Part shown: piece by piece, positions 2,947-33,988 of the stretch
Numbering within the stretch: the first letter of the stretch is position 1
Layout of the letters: every line of letters begins with the position of its first letter
Assembly: GCF_947258525.1 (NCBI RefSeq)
Contig: NZ_CAMYIP010000049.1
Coordinates: forward strand, 19,593-83,592
Source: an uncultured Eudoraea sp.
GTDB taxonomy: Bacteria; Bacteroidota; Bacteroidia; Flavobacteriales; Flavobacteriaceae
Length of the DNA: 64,000 nucleotides
Reading direction: 5' to 3'
Notes under the pieces: model-generated
What the model saw: only the letters and a program-made list of their open reading frames with translations
Database searches by the model: none
Told to the model about the DNA's origin: nothing
Position numbers and translations under genes: made by a program

Positions 2947-2978
2947 AAAAAAAAGCCCCGATTAAGACATCAGGGCTT
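2947..2978 (-). terminator. Intrinsic terminator
   Basis: Minus-strand 10-bp stem with one U-G wobble (C/A mismatch on the plus strand), followed by T8. Confidence 0.75.
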
Positions 2979-3058
2979 TTCCTAAATAACCAACCAAACT
3001 TTAAATTATGAAAAACCAATACTTAAAGTTATAAGGGAACCACCCCTTATACCTCCAA
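2947..3058 (-). ncRNA. Putative sRNA copy 1 (5' hairpin, A/T linker, conserved 17-mer, intrinsic terminator)
   Basis: Minus strand: TATAAGGG/CCCTTATA hairpin (3030-3051), AACTTTAAGTATTG (3017-3030), TTTGGTTGGTTATTTAG (2982-2998), stem AAGCCCUGAU/AUCGGGGCUU (2953-2978) followed by T8. TAAATTTG box just upstream. Confidence 0.5.
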
Positions 3059-3170
3059 ATTTACTTAATAAGTATTTTCCTTGAAAATCTTTTAACTTAC
3101 TTTAACTAGGGTATTAACAATACTTTATAAAAGCGTGTTGATTTTTGACAAAATCTTAAGAAAAATACCT

Positions 3171-4313
3171 TTAAAGTGTTCCTCTTGATGCCTGTTCTCT
3201 TTCAATGGCTTCAAAGAGTGCTTTAAAATTACCTTTACCAAAAGACTTCGCGCCCTTCCTCTGAATAATTTCTATAAACAATGTAGGTCTATCCAACACA
3301 GGTTTCGTAAAAATCTGAAGCAAGTACCCCTCATCATCCCTGTCTATAAGTATACCTAATTCCTTTAAAGGTGCAAGATCCTCATCTATTTCTCCTACCC
3401 TATCCAGCACATCTTCATAATAACTGGAAGGAACTGTTAAAAATTCAATTCCTCTATCCCTTAGAGCTGTAACGGTCTCAATAATATTATCAGTGGCCAT
3501 TGCCATATGTTGAACTCCGGCTCCATTGTAAAACTGGATATATTCTTCTATTTGTGATTTTTTCTTTCCATCTGCCGGTTCATTAATAGGAAATTTAATT
3601 CGGCCATTGCCATTACTCATCACCTTGCTCATTAAAGCAGTATAGTCTGTTGAGATATCCTTATCATCAAATGAAACCAATTGAGCAAAGCCCATAACCT
3701 TCTCATAAAACTCACACCACTTGTTCATCTCATTCCAGCCCACATTGCCAACCATGTGATCAATATATTTAAGCCCTACATCTTTTGGTTTGAAGTAGGG
3801 GTCCCACTTAATATAGCCAGGCATGAATATTCCGTTATAATTACCCCGTTCAACAAACACGTGGACTGTCTCCCCGTATGTATGTATTCCAGACAAAATG
3901 ATTGAACCTTTTTCATCTTTAAGTTCCTTGGGCTCAAAATAACTCACTGCACCTCTGCTAGTGGTTTCATTATAGCTCTGAGTTGCATCATCTACCCAAA
4001 GGGCTATAGCTTTTACCCCATCACCATGTGATTCTACATGTCTGTTAATTTCTCCACCGGGTACGAGAGAAGACGTGAGTACAAGTCTTATTTTATCTTG
4101 CTCTACTACATAAGACACCCTGTCTTTCAGCCCTGTTTCCAAACCGGCATAGGCTAAGGGTTGAAAGCCCCATGCCGACATATAATAATACGCTGCCTGT
4201 TTGGCATTACCCACATAAAGCTCTACATGATCAGTCCCTAAAAGAGGTAAAAAATCTTCTGCTTCAGGATTTTCCTTCGGCAACTTTAATGACGTTTTAT
4301 CTAATATTTCCAT
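3171..4313 (-). CDS. hppD: 4-hydroxyphenylpyruvate dioxygenase
   Basis: 380 aa with two VOC domains; DHMVGNVGWNEMNKWCEFYEKVMGF, GVQHMAMATDNII, LFIEIIQRKG. Confidence 0.93.
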   Translation of the reverse strand: MEILDKTSLKLPKENPEAEDFLPLLGTDHVELYVGNAKQAAYYYMSAWGFQPLAYAGLETGLKDRVSYVVEQDKIRLVLTSSLVPGGEINRHVESHGDGVKAIALWVDDATQSYNETTSRGAVSYFEPKELKDEKGSIILSGIHTYGETVHVFVERGNYNGIFMPGYIKWDPYFKPKDVGLKYIDHMVGNVGWNEMNKWCEFYEKVMGFAQLVSFDDKDISTDYTALMSKVMSNGNGRIKFPINEPADGKKKSQIEEYIQFYNGAGVQHMAMATDNIIETVTALRDRGIEFLTVPSSYYEDVLDRVGEIDEDLAPLKELGILIDRDDEGYLLQIFTKPVLDRPTLFIEIIQRKGAKSFGKGNFKALFEAIEREQASRGTL

Positions 4314-32683: not shown

Positions 32684-32719
32684 AAAAAAACCACTCCGAA
32701 TTGAAATCCGGAGCGGTTT
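32684..32719 (-). terminator. Intrinsic terminator
   Basis: 13-bp stem on the minus strand with G-U wobbles (A/C mismatch on plus), followed by T7. Confidence 0.75.
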
Positions 32720-32822
32720 CTAACTAAATAACCAACCAAAAATATTTTTTTACAAACCTTTCCCTACTAACTTAAATAACGCAATATTTAAAGTTTTCAT
32801 TGCCTGGATACAGGTAAACCAA
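32684..32822 (-). ncRNA. Putative sRNA copy 2 (same architecture as 2947-3058)
   Basis: Minus strand: CCTG/CAGG hairpin (32800-32817), AACTTTAAATATTG (32782-32795), identical 17-mer TTTGGTTGGTTATTTAG (32724-32740), terminator stem AAACCGCUCCGGA/UUCGGAGUGGUUU plus T7. Both neighbouring genes are on the plus strand. Confidence 0.5.
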
Positions 32823-32960
32823 TGTTAAAGTTTTGAGTATTTCATCGTTTTTTAACTTGGCAATTTCAACATTATTCCCACGACCCAGACAATACTATTT
32901 GTCTGATAAAATATTATAATACAATGACTGTCAATAAATTAAGTGGTTATTATTTTTAAG

Positions 32961-32968
32961 TACATTTG
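32961..32968 (+). promoter_or_regulatory. Candidate -7 box TACATTTG upstream of gpsA
   Basis: TAnnTTTG match 18 nt upstream of the ATG at 32987; shares TACATTTGATAG with 40208. Confidence 0.5.
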
Positions 32969-32986
32969 ATAGACTAAATTAGTTTG

Positions 32987-33988
32987 ATGGAAAAAGATCT
33001 TAAAATTGCTGTTTTGGGCGGTGGAAGTTGGGCTACGGCTATTGTAAAAATGCTCACCGAAAACAGGGATAAGGTAATCTGGTATATGCGTAATGAAGAC
33101 GCAATAAAATATATTAAGGCCAATAAACACAATCCTAACTACCTTACCTCCGTAGAATTTAAGCTAGAACAGCTAGTCCTCACAAATAATATAAGCGAAG
33201 CAGTTTCCATGGCTAATCTACTGATATTCGCAATTCCATCTGCCTTTTTAGAAAGTGAACTCAAAAAACTCACAATCCCTTTGAGTGATAAGATAATTTT
33301 CTCTGCTATTAAGGGAATTGTGCCTGAAACAGGATTAATAGTAGGAGAACATTTTTATCAAAAATATGGTATTCCCTATGAAAATATTGGTGTTATAACC
33401 GGTCCATGTCATGCTGAAGAAGTGGCCTTGGAACGTTTGTCGTATTTAACAATTGCCTGTGCCGATACTGACAAGGCTATTGAACTTTCAGGTCATTTAA
33501 ACAGCCATTATATTAAGACTAAAATTTCAGATGATATCATAGGCACTGAATACGCAGCCATGCTGAAAAATATTTACGCCTTAGCCGCAGGTATCGCTCA
33601 TGGATTAGGTTATGGCGATAATTTCCAATCTGTTTTAATGAGTAATGCTATCCGAGAAATGAAGCGATATATTTCGAGAGTTCACAAGATGAAACGCAAT
33701 ATCAATAACTCTGCCTATCTGGGAGACCTTCTGGTAACCGGTTATTCAACTTTTAGTCGGAATAGGATGTTCGGTAATATGATAGGTAAAGGATATAGAG
33801 TAAAAAGTGCCATGATGGAAATGAAAATGGTAGCGGAAGGTTACTACGCAACGGAAACTGCCTATAAATTAAAATCAACTTTTAAAAAGAAAGTCAGGAC
33901 TCCAATTATTGATGCGGTATATGATATTCTTTATGACCATAAGAATGCAAAAAAAACTTTCAGAGCTCTCACGGAAAAATTAGATTGA
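32987..33988 (+). CDS. gpsA: NAD(P)H-dependent glycerol-3-phosphate dehydrogenase
   Basis: IAVLGGGSWATAIVKML, IFSAIKGIVPETG, GPCHAEEVALERLS, NIYALAAGIAHGLGYGDN. Confidence 0.95.
   Translation: MEKDLKIAVLGGGSWATAIVKMLTENRDKVIWYMRNEDAIKYIKANKHNPNYLTSVEFKLEQLVLTNNISEAVSMANLLIFAIPSAFLESELKKLTIPLSDKIIFSAIKGIVPETGLIVGEHFYQKYGIPYENIGVITGPCHAEEVALERLSYLTIACADTDKAIELSGHLNSHYIKTKISDDIIGTEYAAMLKNIYALAAGIAHGLGYGDNFQSVLMSNAIREMKRYISRVHKMKRNINNSAYLGDLLVTGYSTFSRNRMFGNMIGKGYRVKSAMMEMKMVAEGYYATETAYKLKSTFKKKVRTPIIDAVYDILYDHKNAKKTFRALTEKLD

Follow-up and report, generated by a model that had tools for sequence, protein, structure and literature searches.

Between a DUF3108 gene and hppD, the window (the whole stretch of 64,000 nucleotides analysed here) almost certainly harbors an RNA gene, read from the minus strand approximately over positions 3051-2947. 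A small RNA on this strand had been proposed by the initial annotation, and conservation together with a covariance model makes it very probable that it is a gene indeed; the promoter box, the first hairpin, the 17-mer, and the terminator listed in that annotation are all present where it had placed them. The locus and the second copy of its 17-mer consist of the following features:

1888-2721: DUF3108 gene, one flank of the sRNA locus
3171-4313: hppD (TIGR01263), the other flank
2947..3051, minus strand: putative sRNA gene of type A (conservation and covariance model; fold z = -5.5)
3091..3162, minus strand: upstream array TTCTTAAG..TGTTAA..TAGTTAAAGTAAGTTAAA made of GTTAA repeats, hardly varying among 12 species from several genera
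3056..3063, minus strand: predicted -7 promoter box TAAATTTG of Bacteroidota type, with conserved fixed spacing to hairpin 1
3030..3051, minus strand: hairpin 1, UAUAAGGGGUGGUUCCCUUAUA (DNA: TATAAGGGGTGGTTCCCTTATA), loop core GUGGU, with compensatory changes
3030-3017, minus strand: AACTTTAAGTATTG, as read in the sequence
2998..3029, minus strand: predicted hairpin 2, ACUUUAAGUAUUGGUUUUUCAUAAUUUAAAGU (arms ACUUUAAGUA...UAAUUUAAAGU), from fold, accessibility, and alignment
2982..2998, minus strand: putative single-stranded seed UUUGGUUGGUUAUUUAG (17-mer; DNA TTTGGTTGGTTATTTAG), from fold, accessibility, and recurrence
2948..2982, minus strand: predicted intrinsic terminator GGAAAAGCCCUGAUGUCUUAAUCGGGGCUUUUUUUU, from fold; its stem is variable in relatives yet retained
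32684..32740, minus strand: copy 2 (type B), seed UUUGGUUGGUUAUUUAGUUAG with its own terminator

The type A sRNA is approximately 105 nt long if its 5′ end is placed according to the -7 box. Folding resolves the molecule into three stems, that is, hairpin 1, hairpin 2, and the terminator (z = -5.5), and the segment previously described as an A/T linker turns out to be part of the second of them (3029-2998). The minus-strand orientation had been assigned correctly because the terminator stem contains a U-G wobble on this strand vs a C/A mismatch on the plus strand. Hairpin 2 presents UUUUUC and the overlapping UUUUUCAU, the complement of AUGAAAAA; according to the accessibility computation the last bases of UUUUUCAU are partly paired, and the seed downstream is largely unpaired, with mean unpaired probability of 0.84. 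GGU motifs are repeated in both exposed regions, namely the GUGGU loop and UUGGUUGGUUA. The covariance-model search for homologues, suggested as a check along with the original proposal, revealed copies of the sRNA in many genomes of the family, and hairpin 1 shows strong covariation. The stem of hairpin 1 varies by many double changes around the fixed loop core GUGGU, and these compensatory changes are strong evidence for a functional RNA: for 100 distinct arm pairs, 697 of 800 cells were paired, and none of 2000 shufflings of the 3′ arms, performed without correction for relatedness, gave more than 604. Hairpin 2 is thermodynamically clear, type A sequences being too invariant for the same test.

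The RNA body is almost invariant in 12 species belonging to several genera, the -7 box and the upstream array being strongly conserved as well, and the whole unit is present in the majority of sister species as well as outside the genus; at some loci complete units stand in tandem, each with its own -7 box. The covariance model exceeded 108 bits in 48 of the 301 sampled Flavobacteriaceae genomes, which at this threshold is the safe count of genomes with close copies. At E 0.01, matches were obtained in 236 of 301 family genomes, the number that overstates the family because the inspected matches outside Flavobacteriaceae are bare terminators having neither of the conserved motifs. Allowing at most one mismatch, the 17-mer was detected in 29 of 37 genomes within the family vs 1 of 23 outside it. 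Core carriers found by the scan of named genomes are Maribacter, Zobellia, Arenibacter, Cellulophaga, Allomuricauda, Croceitalea, Robiginitalea, Eudoraea, Kordia, Galbibacter, Sinomicrobium, and Capnocytophaga, among others; relatives in Capnocytophaga, Kordia, and others are divergent, and so are the members in a Flavobacterium-like genus, scoring mostly 40-50 bits. The rigid pattern of the GTTAA array was confined to this sRNA among 37 genomes searched, and the array is considered as a putative activator-binding site, which suggests the existence of an activator. Its interpretation as a Pho box was rejected: the corrected array is present only at this sRNA, and the PhoU model gave no match. 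On the other side of the sRNA, between its terminator and DUF3108, an element TTTGGAAYA-N-TTG resembling a variant of sigma54 promoter is conserved (L107-L137, L208-L287, L400-L417) and kept even in the Flavobacterium-like genus.

The recurrence of the 17-mer at 32.7 kb is borne out: exact matches in the window are two, at 2982-2998 and 32724-32740, both on the minus strand. No other occurrence in the genome has a terminator behind it, the remaining near matches being coding-like or antisense. Kinship of the second copy to the first is limited to the module composed of the 17-mer and terminator. The block AACTTTAARTATTG, also supposed to recur, is found in copy 2 of this window but is absent from copy 2 of most sister species, and therefore the 17-mer represents the robust common part. 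In other genera (L092-L095), the type B module forms the 3′UTR of a gene having a sigma54-like promoter TTGGCAC-N-TTG; in the genus of the window, no coding sequence precedes copy 2 (32684-32987), and seed and terminator remain. A small ORF within this copy (ATG...FWLVI*) was rejected as a coding candidate since in some sister species it has stops or frame breaks.

Altogether seed and terminator are common to three classes, A/A′, B, and C, differing in promoters and 5′ ends. In A/A′, both hairpins are present and the promoter is of sigmaA type, while class C is a short RNA consisting of TTTGGTTGGTTAG and the terminator and equipped with a sigma54-like -24/-12 element TGGCAY-N-TTG, which is located mostly 79-95 nt upstream, at a fairly constant distance (L023, L037, L062-L064, L069, L164, L167, L171, L175); sometimes class C units are arranged in tandem, three of them at L164. 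Since RNAs whose promoters differ and whose 5′ parts are unrelated all carry the 17-mer, this stretch stands out as the functional seed. The assignment of the locus as the prototype of a Flavobacteriaceae RNA family absent from Rfam 15 is well supported by sequence comparison. Repeats of the type TTTGGT[GA]GGTTATTTAG, occurring 6-7 times in the genomes G028 and G030 (L020, L033, L059-L061, L070-L075), are unrelated to the sRNA: their repeated contexts are near-identical and coding-like, and they probably belong to a repeated mobile-element gene.

The third closest match of the 17-mer in the genome (16/17) is antisense and falls into the 5′UTR of a gene for an MFS sugar porter (TIGR00879), where the complementary stretch CTAAATAACCAACCAAT ends 14 nt ahead of the start codon ATG. 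Five species of the genus, namely that of the window and four sisters, are arranged alike in this respect, 16-17 of the 17 nt being complementary. For nine porter orthologues from other genera that carry the sRNA, the mean pairing energy of leaders was -13.0 kcal/mol vs -9.2 kcal/mol for 586 background leaders (p = 6e-4), in a comparison scoring energies regardless of leader accessibility, with orthologous leaders sharing ancestry and the porter chosen post hoc, after the match had been seen. One of 60 shuffled seeds reached this difference between orthologues and background. Two of the nine other-genus leaders have no pairing with the seed, leaders of paralogous porters are near background (mean -10.2 kcal/mol), and many genomes carrying type A have no close homologue of the porter. 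The reversed-pattern control of the 17-mer produced about 12 matches in 60 genomes, and a chance match that is correctly oriented and lies in a start region is estimated to occur in well under 1% of genomes. Leaders of two orthologous SSF (sodium:solute) symporter genes (L093:7159 and L095:7075) rank second and third relative to the 586 background leaders. Within the genus, leaders of aqpZ (L358, L370, L371) and of two RidA-like genes (L359, L360, L372-L375) contain UAACCAA(C) before AUGAAAA, and these genes are possible further targets. No other place in the genome has a contiguous antisense match spanning both seed and AUGAAAA. Enrichment of seed complements at start regions in general was absent in two tests and slight in one, and susC leaders were rejected as the main targets, the exact complement being absent from the susC leaders of this genome.

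The exposed stretch is complementary to the start of the sugar-transporter message, and therefore the sRNA probably exerts post-transcriptional control of sugar uptake. Several statements of different strength are implied here. It is likely that the RNA is a trans base-pairing regulator; given pairing, repression rather than activation is fairly likely; that the MFS sugar porter is the true target has a moderate probability, and with similarly moderate confidence we regard the RNAs as a trans-acting family whose targets are mRNAs of sugar importers, affected at translation initiation. Judging from the signals described above, the -7 box promoter would drive synthesis of a standalone RNA of approximately 105 nt ending at the intrinsic terminator, and the timing of this synthesis would depend on a factor binding the GTTAA array. 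The seed is predicted to pair with CUAAAUAACCAACCAAU, positions -31 to -15 of the porter mRNA, and probably also with other uptake mRNAs and with leaders of the UAACCAA...AUGAAAA type, in which UUUUUCAU of hairpin 2 could cover the start codon. With the initiation region occupied in this way, translation would most likely be blocked.

The genomic context allows other readings, one of them being a cis-acting leader or attenuator of the DUF3108 - tryptophan 2,3-dioxygenase genes, so that transcripts started at TAAATTTG would end unless some signal permits read-through. Indeed, most close copies sit just 5′ of a DUF3108 gene; among named loci, this gene lies within 1.5 kb in 63 of the 68 belonging to type A and in 9 of the 12 belonging to type A′, and it is read from the same strand. 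Against this stand the strength of the terminator, the tandem copies, copies lacking DUF3108 in the vicinity (L257), and the presence of the seed at unrelated loci; no conserved anti-terminator was seen, and the TTTGGAAYA-N-TTG element following the terminator in most loci means that DUF3108 seems to have its own promoter. The attenuator is therefore improbable, slightly more so than another explanation, still unlikely, according to which the RNA titrates an RNA-binding protein by its repeated GGU elements (loop GUGGU and UUGGUUGGUUA). Titration would agree with the loop core being fixed while its stem varies, with GGU motifs in both exposed regions, and with near-total sequence constraint, but it does not predict near-perfect complementarity to a leader beside the start codon, kept in related species. 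Moreover, a search confined to PF00076 found no RRM-1 protein in this genome, estimated to be 100% complete, and the same model matched in the control Bacteroides genome.

Origin of the sRNA from the 3′UTR of hppD, by processing of hppD mRNA without use of its own promoter, had been offered by the initial annotation on a par with a standalone gene. The RNA does begin about 120 nt past the hppD stop codon on the same strand with no intervening terminator, and relatives of 3′UTR type (type B) are known here. Nevertheless, the promoter box and the array occupy fixed conserved positions, complete units occur in tandem with their own boxes, and the sRNA persists at loci with other neighbors, hppD being missing from the vicinity at L276 in Sinomicrobium and L257 in Capnocytophaga; for these reasons the standalone sRNA is favored and the processed product appears very improbable. 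We retain the interpretation of the locus as an independently transcribed, probably base-pairing sRNA. Hardly any sRNAs of Bacteroidota are understood, and the number is smaller still for polysaccharide-degrading Flavobacteriaceae; a nearly invariant and widespread sRNA, for which a seed is defined and a sugar importer is the candidate target, makes the post-transcriptional control of carbohydrate uptake directly testable in this group, and its registration as a new RNA family is possible.

The comparison with Rfam, likewise suggested as a check, was carried out at gathering and permissive thresholds and returned matches of chance level plus a weak one to FopS, no family reaching its cut-off. 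The supposed relation to Flavo-1 found no support, this family being absent from the matches both at the gathering threshold and with E relaxed to 10, and literature searches for the motif brought nothing relevant. The FopS model (RF04319) aligns at the right place and on the right strand, with 18.6 bits for the window vs the cut-off of 56. FopS of Bacteroides represses susC-like importers at translation initiation (PMC11697453). Both are multi-member sRNA families of Bacteroidota having UUUUUCAU and GGUUA before the terminator, and the anti-start-codon seed with UUUUUCAU characteristic of FopS is found in type A hairpin 2. In contrast to FopS, type A has two further hairpins in its 5′ part and its seed, UUGGUUGGUUA, is longer; its predicted target is a cytoplasmic-membrane sugar porter and not SusC, and the RRM-1 protein RbpB with which FopS associates has no PF00076 counterpart detected in this genome. 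Of the known families, FopS comes closest by layout and probable role, and our sRNA may work like FopS without being filed as FopS. Short paralogues with GATGAAGTTTTTCATAATAGATTGGTTAATTAG and terminator, seemingly standing between this family and FopS, were noticed at L139 in the genome G207, which gave 10 matches to our covariance model; the L139 paralogue scores 22.5 bits with RF04319, below the gathering cut-off of 56.

A wider scheme, which we consider tentative and rather doubtful, would be a post-transcriptional circuit spanning Flavobacteriaceae, in which three RNA classes with one seed UUUGGUUGGUUA converge on leaders of sugar importers (MFS and SSF), with FopS as the distant counterpart. 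The participants of this circuit would be A/A′ under a sigmaA-type promoter with the activator array, C as a sigma54-like standalone RNA, and B as the 3′UTR of a sigma54-like mRNA. If FopS truly is the counterpart, the use of sRNAs that cover start codons in carbohydrate uptake would be ancient in the phylum. During glucose-phosphate stress in enterobacteria, SgrS acts on ptsG together with Hfq. The sRNA described here would similarly reduce production of a sugar importer through pairing close to its start region, although the sequences of the two are unrelated. Within the same bacterial family, Rfp sRNAs are described for Flavobacterium psychrophilum, Rfp11, 13, 15, and 18 being conserved in other species and Rfp18 reportedly acting on metalloprotease mRNAs via its third stem-loop (PMC9723704). 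Our family has divergent representatives in the Flavobacterium-like genus; Rfp sRNAs, compared by description only, may include an orthologue. Envelope-stress sRNAs such as RybB, MicL, and CpxQ have shared seeds, so that one pairing module is carried by standalone and 3′UTR-derived RNAs. Their sequences are unrelated to those considered here, and the signals in classes B and C are sigma54-like and not those of sigmaE or Cpx, but the distribution of the seed module between standalone and 3′UTR-derived RNAs is alike.
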